DNA of 64,000 bases from Achromobacter insuavis (GTDB taxonomy: Bacteria; Pseudomonadota; Gammaproteobacteria; Burkholderiales; Burkholderiaceae_B), in NCBI RefSeq assembly GCF_902859645.1, contig NZ_CADIJR010000001.1:310001-374000 (forward strand), written 5' to 3'. Position numbers and translations under genes: made by a program. This document shows, in pieces, positions 8,786-25,668 of this stretch (positions are counted from its first letter, which is position 1; the number at the start of each line of letters is the position of its first letter). The notes beneath the pieces are model-generated. The model was not told the origin of the DNA. It ran no database searches and saw only the letters and a list, made by a program, of their open reading frames with translations.

Positions 8786-9323
8786 GCGCGAGATTGTCGC
8801 ATAGCGCCCCACGCCACCCGCGCACCCAGCGACTACATCCGTCCCCTTGTAACGCCCTGTCATAGCTCCCAGATTCCCCATCAGCGCGCAGCGAACACCC
8901 TCACGCCATCCCCCACCGCGTAAGCCGTTTGGGCCGCCCGCGCGGCCCAAAAAGGCGGGCCCCCCAAACCGCTCCCACGCCGCCGAGGTCCAGCAACGCA
9001 CCAAACCAAGACACCGGTAGTCCGGGGTGGGGCGGGTGTCGCGGAGCGCGCCGTCAGATGCGCCCGACGGAATCCGAAGGAGTCGCCGCAGGCGAGGACG
9101 AGGATGAGGAAGGGGCAGTCCGGAGCGAACGCTCCGGACCGCAATCGCAGGCGCGCCCCGCGACACCCGCCCGCCCTGGACGGCCTACATCTCCTTTGTC
9201 ACCCACTCCCCACCCGACCCCGGCCCTAAAAAAAACGACAGGTTCCAGACAGCTTTTCTTCCTAGTCTTCCGCCCCAGCGCCCCACCGGCGTGCAAATAA
9301 CAACGAGCCCGGAGATACCCCTC
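8786..9323. other. 538-bp intergenic region with repeat copy 1
   Basis: Lies between divergent tctD-like and citrate-transporter genes. The left part holds a hairpin with a 10-bp stem (TTTGGGCCGC / GCGGCCCAAA, loop CCGC) at 8928-8951, which recurs in altered form before repeat copy 2. Then comes the structured repeat, then an A-run and the transporter leader. The frames open through it translate the repeat and are not believed to be genes. Confidence 0.7.
9020..9181 (+). repeat. Structured intergenic repeat, copy 1
   Basis: Shares a core (AGATGCGCCCGA, GGAATCCGAAGGAG, GTCCGGAGCGAACGCTCCGG) with the copies at 18.3 and 25.5 kb. The core has a TCGCC/GGCGA hairpin and a 9-10 bp GTCCGGAGC hairpin. 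It is enclosed by outer arms of about 31 nt that pair with one gap and three mismatches around a perfect CGGGTGTCGCGG block. The outer ends are GTCCGGGG and CCCTGGAC. No coding capacity is credible. Confidence 0.8.
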
Positions 9324-10664
9324 ATGCTATTGACCCTGCTTGGCTTCGGCATGGTGATCACGTTCATGACGCTGATCATGACCAAGCGCCTGTCGCCCCT
9401 GGTGGCGCTGATCCTCGTCCCCATCCTCTTCGCCCTGCTCGGCGGCTTCGGCGCCGGCATCGACAAGATGATGCTCGACGGCATCCGCAAGATCGCGCCC
9501 ACCGGCGTCATGCTGATGTTCGCCATCCTCTACTTCGGCGTGATGATCGACGCCGGCCTGTTCGACCCCATCGTCGGCCGCATCCTGCGCGCCGTGAAGG
9601 GCGACCCGCTCAAGATCGTGGTCGGCACCACCGTGCTGGCGCTGGTGATCTCGCTGGATGGCGACGGCTCCACCACCTACATGATCGTGGTCGCGTCGAT
9701 GCTGCCGCTGTACCGCCGCCTGAAGATGAACGCGCTGTCCATGACCTGTCTGGCGATGCTGGCCAGCGGCGTCATGAACCTGACGCCGTGGGGCGGGCCG
9801 ACCGCGCGCGCCGCCAGCGCGCTGCACGTGGACGCCGGCGACATCTTCGTGCCGCTGGTGCCGGTGATGGGCGTGGCCATCGTCGCGATCCTGGTCCTGG
9901 CCTTCTTCCTGGGCCTGCGCGAACGCCGCCGCCTGGGCGTGCTGTCGCTGCCCGACGGCGCCTCGCTGCACGCCGGCTACGACGAGGACGGTCCCAAGAA
10001 CCTGCCCGAGATCGAGGTCGACCACGACCTGCGCCGTCCCAGGCTGCTGTGGGTCAACGCCGGCCTGACGCTGGCGCTGATGGTGAGCCTGGTGATGGGC
10101 GTGCTGCCGCTGCCGGTGCTGTTCATGATCGCCTTCGCGATCGCCCTGATCATCAACTATCCGAACCTGGCCGAGCAGCGCCGCCGCGTGGCGCAACACG
10201 CCGGCAACGTGCTGTCGGTGGTGTCGCTGATCTTCGCGGCGGGCATCTTCACCGGCATCCTGTCGGGCACGGGCATGGTCGAAGCCATGTCGCGCAGCCT
10301 GCTGGCGGTGATCCCCGACGCGCTCGGGCCGTACCTGGCCGGCATCACCGCGCTGGTCAGCCTGCCGTTCACCTTCTTCATGTCGAACGACGCCTTCTAC
10401 TTCGGCGTGCTGCCGATCCTGAGCGAAGCCGCGCAGGGCTACGGCATCTCGCCGGTGGAAATGGCGCGCGCCTCGCTGATCGGTCAGCCGGTGCACCTGC
10501 TCAGCCCGCTGGTGCCGTCGACCTACCTGCTGGTGGGCCTGGCGGGCGTCGAGTTCGGCGACCACCAGCGCTATTCGCTCAAGTGGGCCACGATGGTGTG
10601 CCTGGTGATGCTGGCGGCCGCGCTGGCGTTCGGCCTGTTCCCCCTGGTCGGTTCCGTCGCCTGA
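9324..10664 (+). CDS. CitMHS-family citrate/divalent metal symporter
   Basis: 446-residue inner-membrane carrier with about 11-12 hydrophobic helices (MLLTLLGFGMVITFMTLI, MLMFAILYFGVMIDAGLFDP, VVGTTVLALVISLDGDGSTT). The MIDAGLFDP and SLDGDGSTTY motifs and the length fit the CitMHS family, which moves citrate complexed with Mg2+ or Ca2+ with protons. The ATG at 9324 has GGAGA nine bases upstream; a GTG at 9291 lacks a site. The downstream reductase starts 39 bases later on the same strand, so co-transcription is likely. Confidence 0.88.
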   Translation: MLLTLLGFGMVITFMTLIMTKRLSPLVALILVPILFALLGGFGAGIDKMMLDGIRKIAPTGVMLMFAILYFGVMIDAGLFDPIVGRILRAVKGDPLKIVVGTTVLALVISLDGDGSTTYMIVVASMLPLYRRLKMNALSMTCLAMLASGVMNLTPWGGPTARAASALHVDAGDIFVPLVPVMGVAIVAILVLAFFLGLRERRRLGVLSLPDGASLHAGYDEDGPKNLPEIEVDHDLRRPRLLWVNAGLTLALMVSLVMGVLPLPVLFMIAFAIALIINYPNLAEQRRRVAQHAGNVLSVVSLIFAAGIFTGILSGTGMVEAMSRSLLAVIPDALGPYLAGITALVSLPFTFFMSNDAFYFGVLPILSEAAQGYGISPVEMARASLIGQPVHLLSPLVPSTYLLVGLAGVEFGDHQRYSLKWATMVCLVMLAAALAFGLFPLVGSVA

Positions 10665-10703
10665 CGGCCGCGCCTCTACGCGTTTCTTGAAAGGAGAACG
10701 TTC

Positions 10704-11444
10704 ATGGCTTTGCGCATTGCTTACGTCACCAGCGGGATGGGCCACACGGGCACCGCGATCTGCCAGGCGCTGCACCACGCGGGCCACCGCGTCATCGCCG
10801 GCTGCGGGCCGCGCTCGTCGCGCAAGGACCACTGGCTGAAGGAACAGAAGTCGCTGGGCTACGACTTCATCGCCTCGGAAGGCGACGCCACCGACTGGGC
10901 CTCGACCGAGGCGGCCTTCGCCAAGGTGCGGCGCGAGGTCGGCGAGATCGACGTGCTGGTCAACAACGCCGGCGCCATGCTCGACATGCGCTTTCGCCAG
11001 ATGAGCCACGCCGACTGGTCGGCGGTGCTGCGCAGCAACCTGGACACGCTGTTCAACAGCACCAAGCAGGTGGTCGACGGCATGGCCGAGCGCGGCTGGG
11101 GCCGCATCATCAACATCGGTTCGGTCGCCGCCGAGAAGGGCCAGATCGGCCAGATCAACTACGCCACCGCCAAGGGCGGCGTCATCGGCTTCACCCGTTC
11201 GCTGGCGCAGGAAGTGGCGGCGCGCGGCGTCACCGTCAACCTGGTGTCGCCGGGCTTTATCGCCGACGACACCGTCAAGGCGTTCCCGCCGGCGCTGCTG
11301 GACCGCATCATCGAAAGCGTGCCGGTGGGCCGCCTGGGCACCGCCAAGGACCTGGCCGGGCTGTGCGCCTGGCTGGCTTCTGACGAGGCGGCGTTCGTGA
11401 CGGGCGCGAACTATGCGATCAATGGCGGCGTGTATATGAGTTGA
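10704..11444 (+). CDS. PhaB-like short-chain dehydrogenase (3-oxoacyl/acetoacetyl-CoA reductase type)
   Basis: 246 residues of the classical SDR fold, NADPH-dependent by family. The cofactor loop reads TSGMGHTG at 9-16, a variant of the usual TGGxxGIG. NNAG is at 87-90 and the catalytic triad is Ser140, Tyr153, Lys157. NYATAKGGVIGFTRSLAQE and the NGGVYMS ending are typical of PhaB. It has a strong ribosome-binding site (AAAGGAGAACG). Pairing with a citrate transporter but no phaC or phaA suggests a role other than polyhydroxybutyrate synthesis, for example reduction of a keto-acid derivative. Confidence 0.82.
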   Translation: MALRIAYVTSGMGHTGTAICQALHHAGHRVIAGCGPRSSRKDHWLKEQKSLGYDFIASEGDATDWASTEAAFAKVRREVGEIDVLVNNAGAMLDMRFRQMSHADWSAVLRSNLDTLFNSTKQVVDGMAERGWGRIINIGSVAAEKGQIGQINYATAKGGVIGFTRSLAQEVAARGVTVNLVSPGFIADDTVKAFPPALLDRIIESVPVGRLGTAKDLAGLCAWLASDEAAFVTGANYAINGGVYMS

Positions 11445-11510
11445 GGGGGGCTTGGCGAGCTTGCTGTCGGTGGTGTCGTCCGGACCTAAGGCAATCGGTG
11501 ATCACTGTGG

Positions 11511-11541
11511 GGAATGGCCCGCCTGAAGGGCCATTCCTTTT
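11511..11541 (+). terminator. Rho-independent terminator of the transporter-reductase operon
   Basis: A 10-bp perfect stem GGAATGGCCC / GGGCCATTCC with a 7-nt loop is followed by TTTT on the plus strand, 66 bases after the reductase stop. Confidence 0.85.
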
Positions 11542-11547
11542 CCCGAG

Positions 11548-11907
11548 CTACACGTCGAGCTGGTCGAACTGGATGCCGAGGGCTGCCGCGATGCGCTCAC
11601 GCGTGCTCTTTCGAGGATTGGCATCGGGGGCTTCCATCGCCGCGTAGCTGGGTTGACGTATGCCCAGCCGGGTGGCCATGTCGATCTGGGTGATCTCCAG
11701 GTACTCGCGCCACGCGCGTACGATGCTCCAGCCATTTCCGCTCATCAACGCAACGACCTCATGGGGAATCGAGCCATCCGCGGGTACCCGCGCAGGACGC
11801 CGGGTCTGGCGCGATTTCTTGCCGGTCAACGCCAGGTATTCCGCGTAGGGAAGGACGACGAACGCAGGCTTGCCGTCGGACTCGAGAATAGTGGGGTGCA
11901 GGCGCAT
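11548..11907 (-). CDS. Antitoxin with Phd/YefM-like N-terminus and XRE helix-turn-helix
   Basis: 119 residues. Residues 1-30 (ILESDGKPAFVVLPYAEYLA) look like the start of a Phd/YefM antitoxin. Residues about 55-119 carry a Cro/CI-type helix-turn-helix (ITQIDMATRLGIRQPSYAAM). It follows the toxin gene by 19 bases in the toxin-first order seen in higBA-type systems. It probably neutralises the RelE-like toxin and represses the shared promoter. The fusion of a Phd-like segment to an XRE domain is uncommon but known in this class. Confidence 0.82.
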   Translation of the reverse strand: MRLHPTILESDGKPAFVVLPYAEYLALTGKKSRQTRRPARVPADGSIPHEVVALMSGNGWSIVRAWREYLEITQIDMATRLGIRQPSYAAMEAPDANPRKSTRERIAAALGIQFDQLDV

Positions 11908-11926
11908 GGAGGTTCCACGGTTGGTA

Positions 11927-12181
11927 TCAATAGGTATTGTCGTCGCGTCGCTTAACTTCCTGAACGTCAATGATGCGAACGGCGGTTGCGACATCAAACA
12001 GGACGCGGTACGCGCCGATCCGCAGACGGAAGCCATATTGGTGTTGGCTGAGTGCCTTGATGTTGTGCATGGCCGGGAAGGCTTCCAGTTTGGCGACTTC
12101 TCCAAGGATGCGTCGTTGATCGCTGACGGGGAGTTTCAACAATTGCCTGACGGCCTTCTTTGCCCAGTTGATGACGTACAC
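11927..12181 (-). CDS. RelE/ParE-superfamily toxin
   Basis: 84 residues from a GTG start. The fold pattern is that of RelE toxins: helices AVRQLLKLPVSDQRRILGEV then AKLEAFP, then the strands YGFRLRIGAYRVLFDV and IIDVQEVKRRDDNTY with basic residues at the end. RelE-type toxins cleave mRNA on the ribosome; ParE types attack gyrase. The KRRDDNTY ending favours RelE. GTG was chosen because an upstream extension would run through the palindromic operator. Local base composition is lower in GC than the neighbours, consistent with acquisition by transfer. Confidence 0.82.
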   Translation of the reverse strand: MYVINWAKKAVRQLLKLPVSDQRRILGEVAKLEAFPAMHNIKALSQHQYGFRLRIGAYRVLFDVATAVRIIDVQEVKRRDDNTY

Positions 12182-12199
12182 AATGCGGAGCCTGTCCAG

Positions 12200-12219
12200 T
12201 ATATAGCTTAATCTATATA
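12200..12219. promoter_or_regulatory. Palindromic operator of the toxin-antitoxin operon
   Basis: TATATAG and CTATATA form a 7-bp perfect inverted repeat around a 6-nt centre, 19 bases upstream of the toxin start in an AT-rich patch that would also hold the -10 region. Such palindromes are the usual autoregulatory targets of XRE antitoxins. Confidence 0.6.
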
Positions 12220-12247
12220 GGTTTACGCCCTGCCAAAGCAAAAGAAG

Positions 12248-12278
12248 CAGGAACCTGAGACTTTCTAAGGTTCCTGCC
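12248..12278 (-). terminator. Rho-independent terminator of the SDR gene
   Basis: A 10-bp perfect stem GCAGGAACCT / AGGTTCCTGC with an 11-nt loop. Read on the minus strand it is followed by TTCTTTTGC, downstream of the SDR gene stop. Confidence 0.75.
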
Positions 12279-12368
12279 CACACGTATCAAGCTTGTTGCG
12301 TGTTTCTAGGACAATCGACTGATTCTTCGCCGAGCGTCTGCGGCGCGAGAATGTCCACGGCGGCGCTA

Positions 12369-13133
12369 TTACCCCCGATTGACCGACACCCCGCCATCCA
12401 CCAGCAATGCCGTGCCGGTGGTGAAGCTGGACGCGTCCGAGGCCAGGTACAGGGCCGAGCGCGCGATCTCGGCCGGCGTGGCCAGGCGCTTGAGCGCGTG
12501 CAGGCCTTCGATGTAGCGGCGCGCCTCGGGCGAGTCCATCGAGGCGCGGCCCATCGGCGTGTCGGTGCCGCCGGGCAGCAGGGCGTTGGCGCGGATGCCC
12601 TGGGCGCCGTATTCCACGGCGATGGCCTGGACCAGGCCGATCAGGCCGGCCTTGCTGGCGGCGTAGGCGCCCATGCCCGGAAAGCCCGCGGTATGGCCGA
12701 CGAACGTGGACGTGAAGACCAGCGAGCCGCCGCCGCGCCGCAACAGGGCCGGGATCTGGTGGCGCGCGCCGAGGAAGGCGCTGCCCAGGTTGGTGTCCAG
12801 GATCTGGCGCCATGCGTCGGGCGCGAGCTGGTGCAGGGGCACGGCCTCGCCGGTCATGCCGGCGTTGTTGAAGGCGATGTCCAGTCCGCCGAAGCGGCGC
12901 TCGGCGACGGTGACGGCGGCTTCGGCCACGGCCTCGTCGCGCACGTCGCCGGCCAGCGGCACGGCGCGGCCGCCGGCGGCCTCGATGTCCGCCACCAGGC
13001 GTTCCAGTTCGGCCTGGCGCCGCGCCACCAGGACCAGGTCCGCGCCCTCGCGCGCGAACAGCTTGGCCGCTTCGTAACCGATGCCTGAACTGGCGCCCGT
13101 GATGATGGCGACCTTGCCGGTCAGTTGCTGCAT
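12369..13133 (-). CDS. Short-chain dehydrogenase/reductase
   Basis: 254 residues of the classical SDR family. TGASSGIG at 12-19 binds NAD(P), NNAG is at 89-92, and the catalytic residues are Ser142, Tyr157 and Lys161 (YAASK). The C-terminus ends GTALLVDGGVSVNRG. The start has a good site (AAGGAA, 6-7 bases). It stands alone with its own terminator; the substrate cannot be read from the sequence. Confidence 0.85.
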   Translation of the reverse strand: MQQLTGKVAIITGASSGIGYEAAKLFAREGADLVLVARRQAELERLVADIEAAGGRAVPLAGDVRDEAVAEAAVTVAERRFGGLDIAFNNAGMTGEAVPLHQLAPDAWRQILDTNLGSAFLGARHQIPALLRRGGGSLVFTSTFVGHTAGFPGMGAYAASKAGLIGLVQAIAVEYGAQGIRANALLPGGTDTPMGRASMDSPEARRYIEGLHALKRLATPAEIARSALYLASDASSFTTGTALLVDGGVSVNRG

Positions 13134-13339
13134 GATGGTTCCTTGTGGGTGAATGAGCCGCCACGATAGGCAGGCCGCGTCGGCCGCGCTATCCGGTTCT
13201 TGCGTTCCCGGCCGGTCGCGCCTGAAGGGGCGGTTCCGGCGTCTCCTCGGGTCGCGCCGGCGAGGCGGTCGCGCTGGCATGCGGCCGCGCCTGGGCCGTG
13301 CCACAATCGGCGCTGGTTGATCGAATACAGAGGAACGCC

Positions 13340-13699
13340 ATGACAGTCCGGTCCCGCCGCGCCGCCCTGGGCGCGGGCGCAATGGCTCTGCTGCTGTTGG
13401 CCGCTTGCGGCAAGAAGACGGAATATCCGCCCGAGGTGCAACGCGCCACCTACGGTTCCTGCCTGGCAGGCTTCAAGGCCAAGGCGCCGCCCGCCATCGC
13501 CGCCGGCGATGTGGACGCCAAGGCCAAGGGCTATTGCCAGTGCGTGATGGATGGCCTGCAGTCCAAGGTGCCGGTGAAGGATTTCCTGCGCTACGACGAG
13601 CTGCTGGCCACCAAGGTCAACAACGCCGAAAGCGAGAAGCTGGGCGCGCAGGTGATGGCCGTGGTCAATGTCTGCCTGAAGCAGATTCCGGACCTGTAG
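13340..13699 (+). CDS. Small lipoprotein with four further cysteines
   Basis: 119 residues. A signal peptide with twin basic start (MTVRSRRAAL) ends in the lipobox LLAAC with lipid-modified Cys23. Cys41, Cys66, Cys68 and Cys112 remain in the mature part (YGSCLAGF, GYCQCVMDG, VNVCLKQ) and could form two disulfides. No domain is recognised; the single CXC and helical content do not settle a function. It has its own ribosome-binding site (AGAGGAA) and terminator. Confidence 0.75.
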   Translation: MTVRSRRAALGAGAMALLLLAACGKKTEYPPEVQRATYGSCLAGFKAKAPPAIAAGDVDAKAKGYCQCVMDGLQSKVPVKDFLRYDELLATKVNNAESEKLGAQVMAVVNVCLKQIPDL

Positions 13700-13723
13700 G
13701 CGCCACGGCGGCGCCAACAACAC

Positions 13724-13748
13724 GGCCGCCCTGGATGACGGGGCGGCC
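13724..13748 (+). terminator. Terminator of the small lipoprotein gene
   Basis: Stem GGCCGCCC / GGGCGGCC with a 9-nt loop, followed by TTCGTGTCTTT, 25 bases after the stop. Confidence 0.7.
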
Positions 13749-13867
13749 TTCGTGTCTTTCAGCGGTGCTCAGGCCTGGCCAAGTCTGTTGGCGGGAAGGC
13801 CGCGGGCGCTGCGGGCGATGTGCCCGTCATACTGCGGGGTGATGCGCGGACCGTGCCGCGAACGGCG

Positions 13868-14038
13868 TCAGGCGCGTTGCGGATTGGCGGCGGCGGACGT
13901 CTTGTCCTTTTCCGTTTGCGCCTGCTTGCGCGCGGCGTCTTCTTTCTGCTGCTGGCTCTGCTGTTCCTGTTGCTTGTTGGGCGACTGGTTCTGGTCCGGT
14001 TGGTTGGACGAAGCCTGATAGCGGGTGGGGAAAGTCAT
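13868..14038 (-). CDS. Small Gln-rich hydrophilic protein
   Basis: 56 residues with a clear ribosome-binding site (AAGAGGT, 7 bases before ATG). The middle is almost all Gln, Lys, Glu and Asp (NKQQEQQSQQQKEDAARKQA), so it is probably disordered or a short helix. No signal peptide, no family recognised. The ribosome-binding site and the biased but coherent composition argue that it is real. Confidence 0.55.
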   Translation of the reverse strand: MTFPTRYQASSNQPDQNQSPNKQQEQQSQQQKEDAARKQAQTEKDKTSAAANPQRA

Positions 14039-14277
14039 GATGCGTACCTCTTGGTTGGATGCGGCGAGATGCCACCAACCCACGGTAGTCCGCTGCGGTG
14101 ATATCCCCTAACGTTCATTTGAAACAAACAATCTTGCCGGCAAACGTGCGTGTGGCAGGCGCGGGCGCTGACAGCGGTCGGGCCGGATCCCGGGGCCTGT
14201 CCGAGCGCAGGCGTGCGGTGATAACTGGTGTAAAGTGGAGAACACCATATTTCCTGAAGGACACAAAGGTGCCTGAA

Positions 14278-14622
14278 ATGAACGAAACCGGCGTGCTGCT
14301 TTTCTCCTATGGAACCTTGCAGGACAAGGCCGTGCAGCGCGCCAACTTCGGCCGCGAACTCAACGGCCGGGCCGACGCCATGCTGGGCTACGTGCAGCGC
14401 TGGGTCGAGATCACCGACCCCGAGGTGATCAAGACCAGCGGCCTGGCGCGGCATCCCATCGTCAGCGCCAGCGACGACCCGCGCGACGAGGTGGCGGGCA
14501 TGGTGTTCGAGATCACCGGCCAGGAGCTCGAAGCCGCCGACCGCTACGAAGTGTCCGACTACAAGCGGGTCTCGGTGCGCCTGAAGTCCGGCGCGCAGGC
14601 CTGGGTGTACGTCAAGGCCTGA
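14278..14622 (+). CDS. Gamma-glutamylcyclotransferase-like (AIG2/GGCT fold) protein
   Basis: 114 residues. The fold signature LFSYGTLQ sits near the N-terminus and the likely catalytic Glu is in AADRYEVSDYKR, as in GGCT/AIG2-like proteins. Members open gamma-glutamyl amines to 5-oxoproline, though many have unknown substrates. ATG at 14278 has AAAGG eight bases upstream. A GTG three codons earlier with GAAGGA ahead of it is an equally possible start. Confidence 0.75.
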   Translation: MNETGVLLFSYGTLQDKAVQRANFGRELNGRADAMLGYVQRWVEITDPEVIKTSGLARHPIVSASDDPRDEVAGMVFEITGQELEAADRYEVSDYKRVSVRLKSGAQAWVYVKA

Positions 14623-14643
14623 GCCGGCGCGGATGGCGCCGTC

Positions 14644-16164
14644 TCAGCCCTTCAGGCCAAGACGGCGCGCCAGCTTGTGCAGGTTGCTGGCGTCGATTTC
14701 AAGCGCGCGCGCGGCGCCGGCCCAGCTGCCCTGGTGCCGTTCGAGCGCCTGGCGGATCGCCTGGCGCTGGCAGGCGTCGACCGCGCCGCGCAGCGTCTGC
14801 GTGGCGCCGGCCGGCAGGGCCGGTTGTTCGGGTGGGGGCGCCGGCAGGGCGCCGTCCTCCAGGTCCAGCAGGCCAGCGCCCAGCGTCACGATCTCGTTGC
14901 GATGAGCGCCATGGCTGACGGCCTTGATGGCGGCGCGGCTGATGACGTGTTCCAGTTCGCGCACGTTGCCGGGCCAGCGGTAGCGGCTCAGCATGTCCTC
15001 GGCCTCGGGTGACAGCCGCAGGCTGCGCAGCCCCAGGCGGGCGCGATTCAGTTCCAGGTAGCGGCCGGCCAGCAGCAGCACGTCGCGGCCGCGTTCGCGC
15101 AGCGGCGGGATCGGCACCGGATAGACCGACAGGCGGTGGTACAGGTCGGCGCGGAAATCGCCCTGGCGCACCCGATCGCGCAGGTCGCGGTTGGTGGCGG
15201 CAACGATGCGCACGTCCACGGTGCGCGGGCGGTCGTCGCCAAGCCGCTGGATTTCGCCGTTCTGCAGCGTGCGCAGCAGCTTGGCCTGCACCGCCAGCGG
15301 CAATTCGCCCACCTCGTCCAGGAACAGCGTGCCGCCATTGGCGGCTTCGAAGCGGCCGGGCCGCTCGCTCATCGCGCCGGAGAACGCGCCCTTGGCATGG
15401 CCGAACAGTTCGCTTTCGGCCAGCGATTCCGGCAGCGCCGCGCAGTTCACGTGCACCAGCGGCTTGCCGCGGCGGCGCGACTGGCGGTGCACGCGATGCG
15501 CGAACAATTCCTTGCCGACGCCGGTCTCGCCCAGCAGCAGGATCGGCAGCTCGGAGTCCGCCACCACCTCGATCTCGTGCAGCAGCCGGCCGATGGCCTC
15601 GCTCTGGCCAAGGATGTCGCTGTCGTCGGCCAGCGCGCTGTCCGTCGGCGCGGCGCCGCGCGCCAGCCGCAGGGCGCGCGTTTCGGCCTCCAGGCGGGTC
15701 ACGCGCAGGGCTGCCTCGACCAGCACGATCATCTCGCGCAGGTCCGACTGCGCCTCGGCGTCGAAGGTGCCGACCTCCAGCGCGTCCAGCGTCAGCACGC
15801 CCCAGGGCTGGCCCTCGATATGCAGGCTGGTGCCCATGCAGTCGTGCACCGGCAGCGGTTCGCCCGCCATGCCGTTGATCAGGCCGTCGTACGGATCGGG
15901 CAGGGTGCTGTCATGGTGGAAACAGGTGACGCCGCGGCGCGCCAGGATGGCTGCCAGCCGCGGATGCTGCTGGACCGCGAAGCGGCGACCGAGCGCATCC
16001 TGGGTCAGGCCGTCCACGGCGATCGGCCGCAGGTGGTCGGCCTCCAGCTGCAGCAGGGCGACGGCGCCGCAGCGGAAATGGGCCCGCAGTCCGGCTGCCA
16101 GCCGCTGCAATCGCACGGCGGCGGGCAGGTCCACGACCAGGTCGGTAAGCAACAGGTTTTGCAT
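14644..16164 (-). CDS. norR: Nitric-oxide-responsive sigma-54 activator NorR
   Basis: 506 residues, the usual NorR length. The N-terminal GAF domain (about 1-165) carries Asp and Cys residues of the kind that hold the NO-sensing iron (TLPDPYDGL, VHDCMGTSLHIEG, TLDALEVG). The AAA+ domain has Walker A GETGVGKE, GAFSGA in place of GAFTGA, and Walker B GGTLFLDEVGEL. A Fis-type helix-turn-helix ends the protein (GSWAGAARALEIDASNLHKL). It is divergent from ytfE with three GT-N7-AC sites and a sigma-54 promoter between. It should activate ytfE on nitric oxide. Confidence 0.92.
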   Translation of the reverse strand: MQNLLLTDLVVDLPAAVRLQRLAAGLRAHFRCGAVALLQLEADHLRPIAVDGLTQDALGRRFAVQQHPRLAAILARRGVTCFHHDSTLPDPYDGLINGMAGEPLPVHDCMGTSLHIEGQPWGVLTLDALEVGTFDAEAQSDLREMIVLVEAALRVTRLEAETRALRLARGAAPTDSALADDSDILGQSEAIGRLLHEIEVVADSELPILLLGETGVGKELFAHRVHRQSRRRGKPLVHVNCAALPESLAESELFGHAKGAFSGAMSERPGRFEAANGGTLFLDEVGELPLAVQAKLLRTLQNGEIQRLGDDRPRTVDVRIVAATNRDLRDRVRQGDFRADLYHRLSVYPVPIPPLRERGRDVLLLAGRYLELNRARLGLRSLRLSPEAEDMLSRYRWPGNVRELEHVISRAAIKAVSHGAHRNEIVTLGAGLLDLEDGALPAPPPEQPALPAGATQTLRGAVDACQRQAIRQALERHQGSWAGAARALEIDASNLHKLARRLGLKG

Positions 16165-16166
16165 GG

Positions 16167-17583: not shown

Positions 17584-17599
17584 TTACGCGGGAACAATC

Positions 17600-18025: not shown

Positions 18026-18584
18026 CCGGCCGCGCGACCAAGCCAGTCAGCTGGTCCGCCCCGGAACATGTCGCCCGCGCCACACCTTCCGACCCCGGCC
18101 CCCGCGCCCACCCTTCCGTCGAAAGCGCCCAATCGCCACCCCTGTCCCGTTGAAGGCCCCCCTTCAACGCTCCCCCTGGCACGCCCAAACGCCCAAACAG
18201 GCCGCCCGCGCGGCCGCCTTTGGGCAACCCCGCAAGACCTTCCCTCCAACGAACCCGCCCCGCCACGAAGCCCAAGCACCCGGTACTCCCCAGCGGCGCC
18301 TCAAAACACACTGACGCAGCGTGGTGGTCTGTCCGGGCGGAGGGCGGGGCGTGTAGATGCGCCCGACGGAATCCGAAGGAGTCGCCGCAGGCGAGGACGA
18401 GGATGAGGACGGGGTAGTCCGGAGCGAAGGCTCCGGACCGCAATCGTAGCCCCGCCCTCCGCCCGGACAGGCCGCCACGCGTCAAAAGAACTCCAACCGT
18501 CGCCAAAAAAAGCCCCCAAGTCATCCCCCCGCCACAATCACCGGTTAGGGATTCCCCCCGGTTGCCCCCAACACCCCCTGTTCC
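18026..18584. other. C-rich intergenic region carrying repeat copy 2
   Basis: About 560 bp with no believable gene. The plus strand is strongly C-rich and G-poor. A hairpin at 18191-18225 (arms GCCCAAA and GGCCGC, loop CCGC) resembles the one beside repeat copy 1, and CCAAGCACCCGGTACTCC near 18268 echoes CCAAGACACCGGTAGTCC near 9005. The repeat element follows. Confidence 0.6.
18331..18468 (+). repeat. Structured intergenic repeat, copy 2
   Basis: The 98-nt core (18351-18448) is enclosed by perfectly complementary arms of 20 nt, or 22 counting two more flanking pairs (18329-18350 with 18449-18470). The arm sequence (GTCCGGGCGGAGGGCGGGGC) differs from the other copies beyond the first seven bases. 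Core hairpins: TCGCC-GCA-GGCGA and GTCCGGAGC-GAAG-GCTCCGGAC. Same orientation as copy 1. Confidence 0.85.
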
Positions 18585-18666: not shown

Positions 18667-19530
18667 ATGCAGTCCACCGCAGCACCCACCCTGGCCCCCG
18701 ACGCCGCCCGCGCCCGCGCCATGTACGACCTTGGCCACAGCACCGTCTTCGCCTCGCGCATCGACCCGCGCTTCTCGTACTGCATGTACGTCCCCCCGCA
18801 CATCGACCAGGCCAAGCACCCGATGGAGCTGGTCGTCATCATGCACGGCACCGGCCGCGCCTTCGTCGAATACCGCGACGCCTTCGCCGAATTCGCCCGC
18901 TGGAACGACTGCATCGTGCTGTGCCCGCTGTTCCCCGTCAGCCCGCTCGGCGACGGCAACCGCGACGGCTTCAAGCAGCTGATCGAAGGCGACATCCGCT
19001 ACGACCACATCCTGCAGGGCATGGTCGCCGAAGTCGGCGAGAAATTCGGCCGCGACTTCACCCGCTTCGCCCTGTTCGGCTATTCGGGCGGCGGCCAGTT
19101 CGTCAACCGCTACACCCTGCTGCACCCGGAAACCCTGTGGGCCGCCTCGATCGGCGCGCCCGGCTCGGTCACGCTGCTCGACCCCAGCCAGGACTGGTGG
19201 GTCGGCGTGCGCGGCGCCGAAGCCCGCTTCGGCAAGGCTGTCGACATCGAGGCCCTGCGCCAGGTCGCGGTGCACATGATCGTCGGCAAGGCCGACCTGG
19301 AAACCTGGGAAATCACCCACCGCGAAGGCGGCAAGTTCTTCATGCCCGGCGCCAACTCCGCCGGCGCCACCCGCCCGGAACGCCTGGAATCGCTGCGCCG
19401 CTCGTTCGAGGCGGCCGGCGTCAAGGCCGTGCTGGACGTGGTCGAGAACGTGCCGCACGACGGTCTCAAGTGCGTCGGCCAGGTGCAGGACTTCCTGGCC
19501 GCCGAACTGCGCAAACTGCGAAATGAATAA
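18667..19530 (+). CDS. Alpha/beta hydrolase of the AsnC regulon
   Basis: 287 residues, cytoplasmic (no signal peptide). The nucleophile elbow GYSGGG places Ser140. The oxyanion segment is IMHGTGR, the acid is probably Asp210 in VGKADLE, and the His is His264 in VPHDGLK. Overall it resembles polyhydroxybutyrate-depolymerase-like or esterase-type hydrolases. First gene of the operon with the ABC permeases 61 bases downstream, so it probably cleaves the imported compound. An AsnC operator lies over its promoter. Confidence 0.82.
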   Translation: MQSTAAPTLAPDAARARAMYDLGHSTVFASRIDPRFSYCMYVPPHIDQAKHPMELVVIMHGTGRAFVEYRDAFAEFARWNDCIVLCPLFPVSPLGDGNRDGFKQLIEGDIRYDHILQGMVAEVGEKFGRDFTRFALFGYSGGGQFVNRYTLLHPETLWAASIGAPGSVTLLDPSQDWWVGVRGAEARFGKAVDIEALRQVAVHMIVGKADLETWEITHREGGKFFMPGANSAGATRPERLESLRRSFEAAGVKAVLDVVENVPHDGLKCVGQVQDFLAAELRKLRNE

Positions 19531-19591
19531 CATCAAAAACAAGATCGGCGGCGGGCGCGCAAGCGCCTGTCTGCCGCGATAGGAGAGGGCC

Positions 19592-20536
19592 ATGCTGCGT
19601 TTCGCGCTATCCCGTATCGTCATGGCCATTCCGACACTGCTGATCGTGGCAGTGGCGGTGTTCGTCATGATCCGCCTGATTCCGGGCGATCCCGCGCAAC
19701 TGCTGCTGGGCGACCTGGCCACGCCGGCGGCGCTGGCCGACCTGCGCGCGCGCCTGGGGCTGGACCAGACCTGGCCCACCCAGTTCGGCATCTGGTTCGG
19801 CAACATGCTGCATGGCGACCTGGGTTCGTCCATCAACACCGGCCAGCCCGTGCTGCCGCTGGTGTGGGACCGCTTCCTGATCAGCGGCCGCGTGGTGCTG
19901 GTGGCCGTGCTGTTCGCCGCGCTGGTGGCCGTGCCCGCCGGCATGATCGCCGCCTGGAAGCAGAACAAGGCGCCCGACCTGATCCTGGTCGGCACCGCCA
20001 CGCTGCTGGTGTCCATCCCCACGTTCTGGCTCGGCCTGCTGCTGCTGATCTTCTTCGGCCTGAAGCTGCAATGGCTGCCGGTGGTGGGCTACGTGTCCAT
20101 CGGCGAAGACTGGAAGGCCGGCCTGCTGTACCTGGCCATGCCGATCCTGACGCTGTTCCTGCACGAGATCGGCGTGCTGATGCGCATGGCGCGCGCCAGC
20201 ACCCTGGAAGTGCTGCGGCTGGACTACATCACCCACGCCCGCGCCAAGGGCCTTTCGGAATCCGCGGTGCTGATGCGCCACGCCTTCCGCAACGCCTTCG
20301 GCCCCACCTGGACGCTGATCGGCCTGGTGCTGGGCAACCTGCTCGGCGGCATCGCCGTGGTCGAAACCGTGTTCACCATTCCCGGCCTGGGCCGGCTGCT
20401 GGTGGATTCGATCTTCGCCCGCGACTATCCCGTGATCCAGGGCTGCCTGCTGTTCGTCGGCGTGATCTACGTGATCGTCAACCTGCTGATCGACCTCTGC
20501 TATCCCATCTTTGACCCGAGAGTGACCGCCGAATGA
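19592..20536 (+). CDS. Peptide-type ABC transporter permease, DppB-like
   Basis: 314 residues with six membrane helices, beginning MLRFALSRIVMAIPTLLIVA as DppB proteins do. The EAA loop that contacts the ATPase is DYITHARAKGLSESAVLMRH. It has a strong ribosome-binding site (AGGAGAGG) and overlaps the next permease by four bases (ATGA). It forms the membrane pore with that protein. Confidence 0.92.
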   Translation: MLRFALSRIVMAIPTLLIVAVAVFVMIRLIPGDPAQLLLGDLATPAALADLRARLGLDQTWPTQFGIWFGNMLHGDLGSSINTGQPVLPLVWDRFLISGRVVLVAVLFAALVAVPAGMIAAWKQNKAPDLILVGTATLLVSIPTFWLGLLLLIFFGLKLQWLPVVGYVSIGEDWKAGLLYLAMPILTLFLHEIGVLMRMARASTLEVLRLDYITHARAKGLSESAVLMRHAFRNAFGPTWTLIGLVLGNLLGGIAVVETVFTIPGLGRLLVDSIFARDYPVIQGCLLFVGVIYVIVNLLIDLCYPIFDPRVTAE

Positions 20537-21354
20537 AAAAGCGAATTGCAGCTAACGCGCTGATAGGCGGCGTGATCGTGGCGGCGATGATCGTCGCGGC
20601 GATCATGGGCGCCTTCTGGACGCCGCACGACCCGCTCAAGATCAACTTCGTGGCGCGCCTGAAGCCGCCGGGCGGCGAATTCCTGCTGGGCACCGACGAG
20701 TTCGGCCGCGACGAGCTGTCGCGCCTGCTGGCCGGCGCTTCCAGCAGCGTCTGGATCAGCCTGCTGACGGTGGGTTTCGCCATCGTCGCCGGCACCATCA
20801 TCGGCACCCTGACCGGCTTCGTGCGCGGCTGGACCGACCGCATCATCATGGCCTTCAACAACGCCCTGCTGGCCTTCCCCGGCCTGCTGCTGGCGCTGGG
20901 CCTGCTGGCGGTGGTCGGCGCCAACAAGTACGGCATCATCCTGGCGCTGGGCCTGGCCTACACGCCGTCGGTGACCCGTATCGTGCGTGGCACGGTGCTG
21001 TCGCTGCGCGAGAAGGAGTTCATCGAATCCTCGCGCGTGCTGGGCAACTCCGAGCTCTACACCATGGTGCGCCACGTGCTGCCCAATTGCGTCGCGCCGC
21101 TGACGGTGCTGGCGACCTCGATGTTCGGCTGGGTGATCCTGGCGGAAAGCGCGCTGTCCTTCCTGGGCCTGGGCGTGCCGCCTCCCGCGCCGACCTGGGG
21201 CAACATGCTGGCCGCCGCCCGTCCGTTCATGGCGCAGGCCTCCTATCTTTCCATTCTTCCCGGCCTGGCCATCGCGCTCGCGCTGCTCGGGATCAACCTG
21301 CTGGGCGACGCGGTGCGAGACCGCTTTGATCCCCGCATGAGGGGCGTGCAATGA
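20533..21354 (+). CDS. Peptide-type ABC transporter permease, DppC-like
   Basis: 273 residues with six hydrophobic helices. The DppC hallmarks are [17 protein letters not shown] after the first helix, the EAA loop [20 protein letters not shown], and the ending [13 protein letters not shown]. Start and stop both overlap neighbours by ATGA, so the three transporter genes are translationally coupled. Confidence 0.92.
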
Positions 21355-23006
21355 GCGCACTGGTTACTGTATCGAATCTGTCCCTGACCGTCGGCCGTGG
21401 CGGCCGCGAAATCGTCGGCGGCGTGTCCTTCGAGGTGGCGCCGGGCGAAATGGTCGGCATCGTCGGCGAGTCCGGCAGCGGCAAGACCCAGGCGGCGCGC
21501 GCCATCATGGGCCTGACGCCGCCGCCGCTGGTGGTGGCCGGCGGCTCGATCCGCTTCGAGGGCGTGGAAGTCACCCAGGCCAGCCCGGCCGCGCTGCGCA
21601 AGCTGCGCGGCGCGCGCATCGGCATGGTGTTCCAGGAACCCATGACCTCGCTCAACCCGTCCATGTCCATCGGGCGCCAGCTGGACGAAGGGCTCAAGCT
21701 GCATCGCCGCGACCTGTCGACGGCGCAGCGCCGCGAACGCATCCTGGAGATGCTGCGCCGCGTCGGCATCCGCGACCCGAAGGCCGCCGTCGAGGCCTGG
21801 CCGCACGAGTTCTCGGGCGGCATGCGCCAGCGCATGATGCTGGCCTCGGTGATGCTGCTGGAGCCGGCGCTGCTGATCGCCGACGAGCCCACCACCGCGC
21901 TCGACGCGGTGGTGCAGCGCGACGTGCTGGAACTGATGGTCGACCTGACGCGCGAGCACAACACGGCCGTGCTGATGATCAGCCACGACCTGCCGATGGT
22001 GGCGCGCTATACCGAACGCATGGTGGTGATGCAGCACGGCAAGGTGCTGGAGACCGGCACCACCGCCGGCATCCTCGAACGGCCGCAGCATCCCTACACC
22101 CGCAAGCTGCTGGACGCGATGCCGCGCCGCCTGCCGGCGCGTCCGCCGATCCAGGAAGCGCCGATCGTCGAGGTCAGGAACCTGGTGGTCGACTACGCCG
22201 GCCACCAGCGCCTGTTCTCGCGCACCGGCGCCAAGCGCGCGCTCAATGGCATCGACCTGCACGTCAAGCCGCGCGAAGTGGTGGCGGTGGTGGGCGGCTC
22301 GGGTTCCGGCAAGACCACGCTGGGCCGCGCCATCGCCGGCCTGCTGTCGCCGACTTCGGGCCAGATCCTGTTCCGCAACCAGCCGGTCAGCCGCCGTTCG
22401 CCGGCATGGCGCGACTACCGCCTGAACTGCCAGATGGTGTTCCAGGACCCGTATTCGTCGCTCGACCCGCGCATGACCATCGGCGAGCTGGTGGGCGAGG
22501 GCCTGCGCATGCTGGTCGACATGCCGGCCGCCGACAAGCGCCGCCGCGTGGACGAAGTGCTGGCCGAAGTCGGCCTGGGCTCGGAATACGCCAAGCGCTT
22601 TCCGCACGAACTGTCCGGCGGCCAGCGCCAGCGCGTGGCCATCGCCCGCGCGGTGGTGCGGCGGCCGTCTTTCGTCATCGCCGATGAACCGGTGTCGGCG
22701 CTGGACGTGACGGTGCGGGCGCAGGTGCTGGACCTGTTCGCCGACCTGCAGGAACGCCACGGCTTCTCCTGCCTGTTCATCAGCCACGACCTGGGCGTGG
22801 TGGAACAGGTGGCCGACCGGGTGGTGGTGATGCGCGACGGCGGCATCGTCGAGCAGGGCACGCGCGACACGGTGTTCGACCAGCCGCGCGAGGAATACAC
22901 CCGCAGCCTGCTGTCGGCGATTCCCGCGCTGGAATCGACCGAAACCGGGGGCGTGCGCCTGCGCTGGCGGCTGGACCAGCAGGAGCCGTCGCGGGCCACG
23001 GCCTGA
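21351..23006 (+). CDS. Fused double ATPase of the peptide-type importer (GsiA/YejF-like)
   Basis: 551 residues with two complete ABC domains. The first has Walker A GESGSGKT, signature SGGMRQR and [12 protein letters not shown]. The second has [16 protein letters not shown] and [12 protein letters not shown]. This is the DppD plus DppF fusion seen in GsiA and YejF. It powers import through the two upstream permeases. The binding proteins are encoded elsewhere in the same region, at 23.9-25.5 and 25.8-27.3 kb. Confidence 0.93.
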
Positions 23007-23014
23007 GGGGACGG

Positions 23015-23051
23015 GTCCGCGCCGGCCGGGGCTTGCCGTCCCGGCGCGGAC
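23015..23051 (+). terminator. Hairpin ending the hydrolase-ABC operon
   Basis: An 11-bp perfect stem GTCCGCGCCGG / CCGGCGCGGAC with a 15-nt loop begins nine bases after the ATPase stop. The bases after it are TTATGCATAAAAT, part of the next promoter, so the T-run is poor. Confidence 0.55.
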
Positions 23052-23061
23052 TTATGCATAA
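23052..23061. promoter_or_regulatory. Palindrome TTATGCATAA before the GntR gene
   Basis: A 10-bp perfect palindrome overlapping a -10-like ATAAAAT, 37 bases before the GntR-family ATG. It is a candidate site for autoregulation. Confidence 0.4.
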
Positions 23062-23097
23062 AATACGCGGTTTGGATTTGATTCACGGGAGTGGTCC

Positions 23098-23718
23098 ATG
23101 CCGAAAGCGGCGGCGACACAGCCGGGCCTGGTTGACCGTATTGCCCTGGATATTCAGTCGGGGGTATACGGCCCCGGCGCGTGGCTGAAACAGATCGATT
23201 TGCAGGAACGTTACGGCGCCAAGCGCCTGGACGTGCGGCGCGCGCTCGACCAATTGACCGCCAAGCGGCTGATCGCGCACATCCCCAACCGGGGTTACCA
23301 CGTCTACACGATGGATCCGGACCAGCATGTGCAGATCCGCGACATCCGCGTGCTGCTGGAAACCGGCGCCGCGGCCGACCTGATGCCCAACGTCACGGCG
23401 GCCAAGGTGCGCGCCCTGCGCACGCTGGCCGAGCGTTTCTCCAAGCTGCTGCAGGACGGCACGCTGCTGGAGCAGTACGAGGTCAACCTGGCGTTCCACG
23501 CCGGCATGTACGACATGTGCTCGAACCGCGAACTAGCGGCCCTGATCCAGGAAACGCGCGCGCGCGGACCGGCGGCGCCGGCCAAGGAATGGGTCACGCG
23601 TTCGCGCATCGAGATCTCGGCGCGCGAGCACTTCGACATGGTCGAGGCGCTCGAGGCGCGCGACGTCAAGCGCCTGCAGAAGATCATCGCCCAGCACGTC
23701 GGCCAGGACATTTCCTGA
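23098..23718 (+). CDS. GntR-family regulator with FCD ligand domain
   Basis: 206 residues. Winged helix-turn-helix at about 10-72 (VDRIALDIQSGVYGPGAWLK, RLDVRRALDQLTAKRLIAHI), then an all-helical FCD domain (LLETGAAADLM, FHAGMYDMCSNRELAALIQE, REHFDMVEALEARD). The FCD His and Asp residues usually bind a metal and a small carboxylate. It sits between the importer genes and the first binding-protein gene. It may tune this uptake locus in addition to the AsnC regulator. Confidence 0.87.
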   Translation: MPKAAATQPGLVDRIALDIQSGVYGPGAWLKQIDLQERYGAKRLDVRRALDQLTAKRLIAHIPNRGYHVYTMDPDQHVQIRDIRVLLETGAAADLMPNVTAAKVRALRTLAERFSKLLQDGTLLEQYEVNLAFHAGMYDMCSNRELAALIQETRARGPAAPAKEWVTRSRIEISAREHFDMVEALEARDVKRLQKIIAQHVGQDIS

Positions 23719-23746
23719 CCCGACGCGGGCGCGACGGCCCGGTTTT

Positions 23747-23779
23747 CGCGGCGGCCTTCCTGAAAAGGAGGCCGCCGCG
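23747..23779 (+). terminator. Terminator of the GntR gene
   Basis: Stem CGCGGCGGCCT / AGGCCGCCGCG, 11 perfect pairs with an 11-nt loop, 29 bases after the stop. No strong T-run follows. Confidence 0.55.
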
Positions 23780-23849
23780 GTCATTTCGGGGCCGCTTTCA
23801 GGGATACCCCGGATACCGCATCGGCCATTAGCCTGCATAATGGGCAGCT

Positions 23850-23865
23850 ATTTTGGCGCCAATAT
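23850..23865 (+). promoter_or_regulatory. Operator site 3 of the AsnC-type regulator
   Basis: ATTTTGGCGCCAATAT, with the same TTGGCGCCAA core as sites 1 and 2 and identical over 16 bases to site 4. A -10-like CATAAT lies at 23836-23841, so the palindrome covers the start region of the first binding-protein gene. Confidence 0.7.
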
Positions 23866-23908
23866 AGTCATGAATCCGGCGTCGCATGCCCCCGGGGGAA
23901 TTTCCGCA

Positions 23909-25468
23909 ATGCACCACCTTCCTGTTTCCCGAGCGCTCGCGCTCAGCCTGGCCCTGGCCGCCGCAGGCGCGGCCCAGGCCGCCACCCTGACCATCGCCCA
24001 GCCGGCCGACATCCGCTCGACCAATCCGGGCGTCAACCGCGATAACACCACCGACGGCGTGGTGCTGAACATGGTGGAAGGCCTGGTCGGCTACCGGGAG
24101 AACGGCACGGTGGCGCCGTTGCTGGCCAAATCGGTCGACCTGTCCGAAGACGGACTGACCTATACCTTCAAGCTGCGCGACGGCGTCAAGTTCCACAACG
24201 GCGCCACGCTGACCTCGGCCGACGTGATCTGGAGCTGGCAGCGCTACATGGACGCGAAGACGGACTGGCGCTGCCGCAGCGACTTCGACGGCCGCAATGG
24301 CCTGAAGGTCACGGACGTGACCGCGCCCGATGCGCAGACCGTCATCATGAAGATCGACCGCAAGTCGGCCGTGTTCCTCGATTCGCTGGCCCGCACCGAC
24401 TGCGGCATGACCGCGATCCTGAGCAAGGATTCGGTCAACGCCGATGGCTCCTGGAAGGAGCCGGTCGGCACCGGCCCGTACCAGTTCAAGGAGTGGAAGC
24501 GCGGCGAGTACGTGCTGCTGACCGCGTTCAAGGACTACGTCTCGCCCAGCGCCGGCGACAAGCCGGACGGCTACGTCGGCGCCAAGCGCCCGCTGGCCGA
24601 CGAGGTCAAGTTCCTGGTGGTGCCGGACCCGTCGACCGCCAAGGCCGGCCTGGTGTCGGGCGCGATCGACGCCAGCCAGATCACCATCACGGACGTGGCC
24701 GAGCTCAAGAAGAGCAAGACCGTGTCGGTGATGAGCCCGCACGACGCCACCAAGCACACGCTGCTGTTCCAGACGCAGGATCCGGTGCTCAAGAACGTCA
24801 AGCTGCGCCAGGCGATCGCGGCGGCGCTGGACATTCCGCAGGTGGTGGCGGCGGCCTCCGAAGGCCTGGGCCAGTTGAACAACTCGGCGGTGTACGCGGG
24901 GTCGGCCTACTACCAGGAGACCGAGAAGCGCACCTACAAGTACGATCCGGCGCGCGCGCAGCAGCTGCTCAAGGAAGCGGGCTACAAGGGCGAGCCGATC
25001 GTCATCTACGCCAACAAGCGGGCGCACGTGCCGAGCTATCAGGTGGCGGTGATCGCGCAGGCGATGATGCAGGCGGTGGGCATCAATGCCAAGATCGAGG
25101 TGCTGGAATGGGCCACGCAGCTGGACCGCTACAACACGGGCAAGTACCAGATCAGTTCGTTCACGTTCTCGTCGCGGATCGATCCGGCGCTGAGCTTCGA
25201 GCAGTTCGCGGGCGACAAGACCAAGCAGCCGCGCAAGGTCTGGGATGATCCCGAGGCGCAGAAGCTGATCGACGAGAGCTTCCTGGAGTCGGATCCGGCG
25301 AAGCGGCAGAAGCTGTTTGACCAGCTGCATACGTTGATGCTGGAGCAGACGCCGATGTTGGTGCTTTATAACGGGGCGGATGCCTGGGCTACGAATAAGC
25401 GGGTTGAGGGGTTTTCGGTTTGGGAGGGGAAGCCGCGGGCCTGGGAGACTAAGATCGTTGGCAAGTAA
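23909..25468 (+). CDS. Peptide-type ABC solute-binding protein 1
   Basis: 519 residues of the DppA/OppA class (SBP_bac_5). The signal peptide is MHHLPVSRALALSLALAAAG to AQA. Landmarks are DIRSTNPGVNRDNTTDGVVL, FKLRDGVKFHNGATLTSADV and GTGPYQFKEWKRGEY. The ATG at 23909 follows GGGGGA and directly precedes the signal peptide; upstream in-frame ATGs would add a tail across the operator. It should deliver ligand to the importer at 19.6-23.0 kb. Clearly paralogous to the protein encoded at 25.8-27.3 kb. Confidence 0.9.
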   Translation: MHHLPVSRALALSLALAAAGAAQAATLTIAQPADIRSTNPGVNRDNTTDGVVLNMVEGLVGYRENGTVAPLLAKSVDLSEDGLTYTFKLRDGVKFHNGATLTSADVIWSWQRYMDAKTDWRCRSDFDGRNGLKVTDVTAPDAQTVIMKIDRKSAVFLDSLARTDCGMTAILSKDSVNADGSWKEPVGTGPYQFKEWKRGEYVLLTAFKDYVSPSAGDKPDGYVGAKRPLADEVKFLVVPDPSTAKAGLVSGAIDASQITITDVAELKKSKTVSVMSPHDATKHTLLFQTQDPVLKNVKLRQAIAAALDIPQVVAAASEGLGQLNNSAVYAGSAYYQETEKRTYKYDPARAQQLLKEAGYKGEPIVIYANKRAHVPSYQVAVIAQAMMQAVGINAKIEVLEWATQLDRYNTGKYQISSFTFSSRIDPALSFEQFAGDKTKQPRKVWDDPEAQKLIDESFLESDPAKRQKLFDQLHTLMLEQTPMLVLYNGADAWATNKRVEGFSVWEGKPRAWETKIVGK

Positions 25469-25502
25469 GTAGCTTTTTTCGGGCGATCTTTTTTCTGGGG
25501 CC

Positions 25503-25668
25503 GTCCGGGGCGGCGTTGGCCTGGCGTGCGCGGGGCTACGATTGCGGTCCGGAGCGTTCGCTCCGGACTTTCCCTTCGTCATCTTCGTCACAGCCTTCGG
25601 CTGTTCCTTCAGATTCCCTCGGGCGCATCTACACGCCCCGCGCACGCCAGGCCAACGCCGCCCCGGAC
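25503..25668 (-). repeat. Structured intergenic repeat, copy 3 (inverted)
   Basis: The 98-nt core at 25537-25634, read on the minus strand, has exactly the same length as that of copy 2. It is enclosed by 34-bp perfectly complementary arms (25503-25536 with 25635-25668) unlike those of the other copies except the outer GTCCGGGG. The first core hairpin is ACAGCC-GAA-GGCTGT, where copies 1 and 2 have TCGCC-GCA-GGCGA. Located between the convergent binding-protein genes, where it may also stop transcription. Confidence 0.87.

Follow-up and report, generated by a model that had tools for sequence, protein, structure and literature searches.

Repetitive extragenic palindromic (REP) sequences and bacterial interspersed mosaic elements (BIMEs) are thought to protect mRNA 3′ ends or to aid transcription termination or insulation, and a Y1 transposase defines the REP/RAYT systems. 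Published accounts place REP sequences between convergent genes and name them as targets of insertion sequences (PMC1525189); GTAG-tagged REPs (PMC3733652) and the 26–30 bp Bor repeats (PMC1590033) are both smaller than the element reported here. The Beta-proteobacterial repeat element (BRE; Hot et al. 2011, PMC3110155) measures ~90 bp and occurs in 8–22 copies per Bordetella genome, and the bprJ region, which holds one, yields a small RNA on Northern blots. The stem-loop families Bor-1 and Bor-2 were described by Petrillo et al. (2008, PMC2267715), Bor-2 of B. bronchiseptica being an intergenic repeat of 167 nt with 17(6) copies and a predicted conserved stem-loop (RNAz 1.00). In this study we describe an element of ~165 nt that occurs in three copies within a 64,000-nucleotide stretch of Achromobacter insuavis (RefSeq GCF_902859645.1, contig NZ_CADIJR010000001.1, positions 310,001 to 374,000; hereafter the window), and whose long stems keep their pairing while their sequences change from locus to locus. 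In the literature surveyed on Achromobacter and on such elements generally, it was not recognized beyond the named Bordetella families.

The element consists of a basal stem (P1), a short internal loop, a second stem (P2) and a three-way junction bearing two hairpins, P3 and P4. P1 measures ~31–34 bp in most copies (~32–34 bp in all three copies of the window) and its sequence is nearly unique to each locus, while the core that it encloses is conserved. The internal loop after P1 often reads GTGTA/GTA, and P2 is mostly GATGCG/CGCAATC in Achromobacter and GGAGCCG/CGGCTCC in genome G087, which we take to be Bordetella-like. P3 is a variable hairpin whose internal-loop letters, GAAGG ... GACGA, are nearly invariant, across genera too. 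P4 joins GTCCGGAGC and GCTCCGGAC through GAAG or GAAC in Achromobacter and reads GTCCGCCGC-GAAG-GCGGCGGAC in G087, the loops of other genera being mostly GNAG. The letters GTAG stand at the foot of copy 1 and at several paired ends, and many copies have other letters there.

The pairing of the arms was assessed in 200 distinct full-length copies, of which 194 had an arm pairing score of at least 15 and six a lower one; the score was 28.5 for true copies and 8.8 when arms were swapped between copies. In an alignment of 70 Achromobacter copies (A1), 95.2% of the cells pair and 36 of 56 pairs show changes on both sides, with a covariation of 0.402 as against 0.100 in the shuffled control and at most 0.098 when the structure was slid along the alignment. 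Among 27 copies from other genera (A2), the corresponding values were 96.1%, 47 of 56 pairs, and 0.739, compared with 0.150 after shuffling and no more than 0.118 after sliding, although A2, like alignment A3, was fitted to a covariance model, which leans toward the structure. None of 500 shuffles reached the observed covariation, and no slid structure exceeded 0.118. The helices thus covary beyond both controls, as expected of a structured RNA. An earlier note on this DNA, based on the three window copies, had proposed that the arms drift in sequence without losing their pairing and had asked for a larger set of copies, in which unpaired arms or missing covariation would speak against the idea; the larger set, in which arms pair in 194 of 200 copies and the aligned copies covary, supports the proposal.

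For the window itself, folding was compared with 200 dinucleotide shuffles per copy, which gave z values of −16.6, −12.0 and −8.7 and no shuffle as good as the native sequence for any of the three. The positions and the common core given in the same note are likewise borne out: the core shared by the three copies measures ~93–98 nt, a blast of the core returned full-length matches in the window at copies 1–3 only, copy 3 was recovered whole-length by a covariance model (G000:C1:335503-335668, G000 being the host genome itself), and all three copies lie between gene calls, as had been stated. Among the arm lengths first given (31, 22 and 34 nt), the perfect 34-bp stem of copy 3 stands, and the 22-bp stem of copy 2 is in reality one of 32 bp with two G.U pairs. 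The outer GTCCGGG/CCCGGAC, taken earlier as the only part of the arms that the copies share, we regard as a coincidence, because it is terminal in copies 1 and 3 and internal in copy 2, and because further copies have many other ends.

The stems are not symmetrical with respect to strand. Among 176 distinct arm pairs with a score of at least 15, mismatches of P1, read on the core strand, comprise 113 G.T and 12 A.C. The same lean is found with one copy per orthologue group (76:8, 105 groups), in the 27 copies of other genera (20:2) and in every arm class (19:2, 56:6, 33:4, and 5:0 for the remainder). Transitions in the inner flank are near balance on the core strand (161 CT, 144 AG), so that the excess of G.T is not accounted for by strand-biased mutation. 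Moreover, the RNA fold of the sense (core) strand is more stable than that of the antisense strand in 184 of 194 copies. Since a large excess of G.T over A.C on one strand indicates selection on the fold of that strand, the sequences argue that one strand folds, as RNA or as single-stranded DNA, and that this fold is selected. A cruciform, by comparison, is disfavored because it is strand-symmetric, whereas the mismatches are strongly biased. Of the three options offered in the earlier note, a structured RNA, a cruciform and a rewriting of one arm from the other, the cruciform therefore fares worst; the G.T bias supports the first, and the coupled transversions and mirrored indels described next support the last.

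The evolution of the arms was followed at orthologous loci, grouped by their outer flank and represented by one pair per group (32 groups; outer flank at least 93% and inner flank at least 80% identical, ungapped arms of at least 27 nt, equal offsets). In these comparisons, whose inner non-coding flank had diverged by 11.0%, the arms carried 45 two-sided matched substitutions, 30 of them transversions and 15 transitions, together with 22 one-sided changes, 10 leaving a G.U and 12 a broken pair. The flanks had 305 transitions and 288 transversions, giving an excess of transversions among the two-sided changes (p 0.02), and two-sided transversion flips affected 30 of 1134 pair positions, some of which lie in the adjoining core, compared with transversions at 288 of 5373 inner-flank sites, so that the flips ran at roughly half the rate of the inner flank. 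Mirrored internal indels were present in five comparisons (L464/L093, L032/L003, L006/L174, G040/G011 at the locus of copy 1, and L015/L439), after exclusion of five of the ten flags for indels in both arms, which marked differences in end length. Two looser tallies, one of 179 redundant pairs (420 two-sided changes kept, 11 two-sided broken, 233 one-sided) and one of 52 groups (150, 2 and 42, respectively), were set aside because register shifts after mirrored indels inflate them; in the 52-group set, the outer non-coding flank had diverged by 5.2% (25 of 480 sites) and the inner one by 12.4%.

These data bear on whether selection alone could maintain the stems, with ordinary compensatory substitutions in a structured RNA, unfit intermediates rescued in large populations and no copying between arms. 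Such a process accords with the strand specificity of the G.T bias, with internal-loop letters that are nearly invariant across genera and with the 10 visible G.U intermediates. Compensation through G.U favors transitions, however, and what we observe are transversion-rich two-sided changes, flips accruing at half the flank rate and mirrored indels, so that we consider selection without arm copying rather unlikely. The flips from G-C to C-G and the mirrored indels require a coupling of the arms, which template switching at imperfect palindromes is known to provide (PMC8794818, PMC7202029); intrastrand switching is described as giving an excess of G-C over C-G and of U-A over A-U in work on the upkeep of RNA hairpins, which terms its own strongest evidence on short-stem maintenance circumstantial (Monttinen and Loytynoja 2022, PMC8794818). 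The 5′ arm of P1 shows a G/T excess of this kind (GC 3081 to CG 1631; TA 526 to AT 175). Template switching by itself cannot produce a strand-specific G.T bias, which means that the folded strand must be under selection as well, and the orthologue comparisons accordingly favor, at the level of sequence, arm-to-arm template switching plus selection.

Two other routes were rejected as general sources of these changes. Whole-element conversion from paralogues does not fit, as the arm changes are local and equal-length arms of different copies average 57–71% alike, and concerted evolution of the core is not the rule, as orthologous cores (non-identical pairs) are 91.6% alike and paralogues of the host genome 87.6%. 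An exception is seen in copy 2, in which cores are swapped between orthologues: compared with L183-L186, L188 and L189, its core differs strongly (P3 variants) and its arms are locus-specific, which suggests an apex-centered exchange with other copies. In copy 1, alignment by eye relates the left arm and left flank to the G011 allele and the right arm and right flank to the G009/G040 allele, and each of these alleles pairs perfectly, the two differing by matched changes in both arms that include a mirrored one-base indel. Copy 1 thus looks like a recombinant of two alleles, and its imperfect arms would stem from this apparent recombination.

The placement of the element in genomes was examined with gene calls from a codon-score finder, which makes the contexts approximate. 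Among 194 copies with an arm score of at least 15, 157 had a called gene on both sides, a set in which orthologous copies are counted repeatedly; none of these 157 lay wholly inside a gene call, complete containment being the only kind tested, and 96 lay between convergent genes, compared with 11 of 80 background intergenic regions of at least 200 nt (p 1e-12). In three related 400-kb stretches, a comparison that counts the same loci in three genomes, copies were present in 8 of 32 convergent and 7 of 287 other intergenic regions of at least 150 nt (p 2e-5). Within the convergent class, the right (outer) foot lies at a median of 56 nt from the end of the neighboring gene, to which the element is antisense.

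This proximity to gene ends would suit ordinary intrinsic, bidirectional transcription terminators, as would a side observation at L222 and L227, where some species without the element have, at the corresponding gene end, a short palindrome rich in GC. Of 105 copies, though, none has a T-tract after the hairpin when read in the sense direction and one has it when read antisense, and the size and junction of the element go far beyond a terminator hairpin, so that intrinsic termination was rejected and appears to us most improbable. The flanks have a different character: on the sense strand they are rich in C and poor in G for ~200 nt on the inner side of the hairpin and for 60 nt on the outer side (50-nt bins), with C 0.41 and G 0.25 inside and C 0.38 and G 0.17 outside, as against C 0.33 and G 0.32 in 70 element-free convergent regions whose positions were not exactly matched. 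Rho utilization rules look for a stretch of this kind before the end point, and by composition the flanks would qualify as those of Rho-dependent terminators.

Copies also have a preferred arrangement. Among adjacent copies less than 2 kb apart, at loci that are partly redundant, 67 arrangements face outward, three point the same way and none faces inward, and outward-facing pairs occur in three other genera as well (g5, g15, g28). The examined pairs, those of G087 included, enclose several GC-rich palindromic modules, and in the host genome a composite of ~1.17 kb occurs at three places, 88–91% alike. Open reading frame lists and aligned interiors of composites C19, C99, C1, C13 and C20 revealed no shared gene; as the transposase found in G087 belongs to a nested insertion, an autonomous enzyme within the composite was rejected. 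In G011, the region orthologous to G000:C1:68018-69087 retains of the composite the left half of one hairpin and the right half of the other, fused at the P4 palindrome, which on sequence comparison is a deletion running from one P4 hairpin to the other. In G087, each of the three paired composites (L403, L404, L405) carries an insertion sequence within its palindromic interior, and one also holds a truncated second copy; these insertions are presumably of the IS256 family, a name given from a reading of the protein. At the insertion in L405, the only one so inspected, an 8-bp target duplication, CTAGCGCC, was seen by eye, and the palindromes may be a preferred insertion target.

Nested insertions of this sort would fit an element that acts purely at the level of DNA, either as a cruciform or hairpin bound by a recombination enzyme, gyrase or nucleoid proteins or as a preferred landing place for insertion sequences, for which REP sequences are a precedent (PMC1525189); the length and frequent perfection of the palindromic arms would fit as well, given their location between convergent genes, where supercoils accumulate. 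A DNA-level element without an RNA role leaves the G.T excess and the conserved single-strand loop letters unexplained, and we judge it very unlikely.

Table 1. Copies of the element and associated features in the window (positions counted from its first nucleotide).
Feature	Position	Strand	Remarks
Copy 1	9020–9181	+	P1 arms 9020–9052 and 9150–9181, imperfect; between divergent genes
P4 hairpin of copy 1, GTCCGGAGC-GAAC-GCTCCGGAC	9118–9139	+	From structure analysis
Copy 2	18319–18480	+	P1 arms 18319–18350 and 18449–18480, 32 bp including two G.U; between co-directional genes
P4 hairpin of copy 2	18417–18438	+	From structure analysis
Copy 3	25503–25668	−	P1 arms 25635–25668 and 25503–25536, 34 bp, perfect
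Ends of the convergent genes beside copy 3	25468; 25776	+; −	
P4 hairpin of copy 3	25547–25568	−	From structure analysis
GC-rich palindromic module TGGGCCGCCCGCGCGGCCCA	8930–8949		Upstream of copy 1; likeness to composite interiors judged by eye
GC-rich palindromic module CGCCCAAACAGGCCGCCCGCGCGGCCGCCTTTGGGC	18190–18225		Upstream of copy 2; likeness to composite interiors judged by eye

The family extends well beyond the window. The host genome has at least 40 scored matches, two of them partial, and matches occur in 42 of the 43 genomes of the genus, the host included. The only genome without a match, also with both covariance models, is G023, a small assembly of 4.9 Mb. A pattern scan of named genomes found at least 112 stretches, and the 80 among them that were listed are all from Achromobacter. 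A first covariance model (R1), based on 70 copies, detected members in 57 of 268 family genomes and 6 of 43 genera, and with distant members added (R2) these counts rose to 68 genomes and 14 genera; both searches scored at most 10 matches per genome, making their copy numbers lower bounds. In an order-level sample, 3 of 300 genomes matched, all from the same family as the host. No match was found in plasmid records, and plasmid carriage was rejected. Seven loci scanned against Rfam 15 (E up to 1) gave five weak matches, all under the gathering score, and a known Rfam family was rejected on this ground. Two local arrangements were noted besides. At L152, three copies with identical arms lie in the same orientation (core starts 4040, 5489 and 6976), spaced ~1.45–1.5 kb, and perhaps represent the tandem amplification of a larger unit. 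At L414, L415, L420 and L422, in other genera with few copies, the element lies near gene ends, in sense orientation in three of the four; the genes beside it presumably correspond to ffh, lon and gatB, judging from protein tails, and these copies may be an older, parental form.

A family of this extent could also be a non-autonomous mobile element, its hairpins being processed transposon ends, REP/HUH-like or other, whose single-stranded DNA structure is kept for a transposase. Its high copy number, its outward-facing ends, the GTAG-like feet of some copies and the presence of one ~1.17-kb composite at three places in a single genome all agree with this. The expected enzyme is not consistently associated with it, however: Y1_Tnp (PF01797) has no match in the host genome and is present in 10 of 43 genomes of the genus, and six genomes with at least 20 matches each (G000, G011, G009, G020, G003, G037) are without it, while G006, G029 and G031 are rich in the element and have Y1. 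In addition, no copy was found near the five Y1 places whose surroundings were covered (L338-L342), out of 18 listed. A REP mobilized by RAYT was rejected on these grounds. Over 400 kb, moreover, all six element sites of G000 are common to G011, one of them being that collapsed by deletion, and neither the orthologous alignments nor this comparison revealed a clean empty site or target duplication. Whatever the arm class, the G.T bias lies on the core strand, and paired copies have opposite core strands, which disfavors a single transferred strand. Taken together, mobility of this kind seems to us unlikely.

The reading we prefer, to which we attach about even confidence, is that of a strand-specific structured element with a BIME-like role as 3′-end structure or insulator, its arms kept by selection and template switching together. 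Sequence itself establishes the fold with its covariation and strand bias, the layout, the location and the coupled change of the arms: two copies that face outward bound a palindrome-rich composite without coding sequence, found mostly in the 3′ space that convergent genes share. If transcribed, the fold would act as RNA within read-through transcripts, so that each convergent gene would have a stable hairpin close to its stop codon and mRNA 3′ ends would be shielded. On the sense strand, the C-rich and G-poor sequence that precedes the far hairpin would suit termination of the Rho type; read-through from each gene would then be stopped before entering the other, insulating the convergent genes. 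Template switching during replication would repeatedly copy one arm onto the other, so that the locus drifts and the hairpin stays near-perfect, with selection on the folded strand acting alongside. A stronger version, in which the hairpins are kept perfect mainly by template switching at about the rate of point mutation and selection acts only on the folding strand, we hold tentatively and with a little less than even confidence.

Several points weigh against the preferred reading. The G.T bias fits RNA and single-stranded DNA alike, and since template switching alone does not predict its strand specificity, two processes must be assumed. The excess of transversions is modest, the 22 one-sided changes persist in the 32 comparisons, and such changes are undercounted, because gapped arm alignments were left out and arm detection requires pairing; some core changes look like paralogue exchange, another route to coupling. 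The context counts repeat orthologous loci, and in the window only copy 3 stands between convergent genes. Furthermore, the nearest gene of the pairs reads the element antisense, so that a sense RNA would need long read-through or an internal promoter.

This analysis adds a large, strongly covarying structured repeat, present in 14 of the 43 genera of its family, without a matching Rfam family. It also offers a system for an open question, namely whether compensatory changes in stems arise by selection on two mutations or as single template-switch events, with the advantage that each genome holds tens of long stems, located at independent loci, for which orthologues exist and non-coding flanks can serve as a clock. 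A DNA copying process can partly satisfy RNA covariation tests, which calls for caution. If the stems are indeed maintained mainly by mutational copying, they would be a genome-wide natural demonstration that a mutation mechanism can maintain long RNA stems, and covariation alone could overstate selection on structure.

Compared with known systems, the element resembles REP/BIME sequences in being multi-copy, intergenic and palindromic, in its preference for convergent genes, in forming inverted arrays that are mosaics with other palindromes, and in its nested insertion sequences. It differs in that its unit is ~165 nt with a three-way junction, as against REP hairpins of 20–40 bp, in that its arms are hypervariable between loci around a conserved core, and in that Y1 transposase was not found in the host genome. 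With BRE it shares a mostly intergenic distribution in Bordetella and other Betaproteobacteria (PMC3110155); compared by description only, BRE is ~90 bp and in places tandem head to tail, whereas the element measures ~165–200 nt and forms outward-facing pairs. Bor-2 may be, again by description only, the Bordetella branch of this repeat family, although covariation, arm rewriting and a composite layout are not reported for it in the excerpts of PMC2267715. Finally, the arms share with the hairpins of PMC8794818 simultaneous multi-base compensatory changes, the perfecting of imperfect inverted repeats and the excess of G-C and U-A seen in P1; that work and the quasipalindrome hot spots of E. 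coli concern rRNA stems, microRNAs and reporter genes, whereas the present family provides many independent, intergenic long stems with orthologues.

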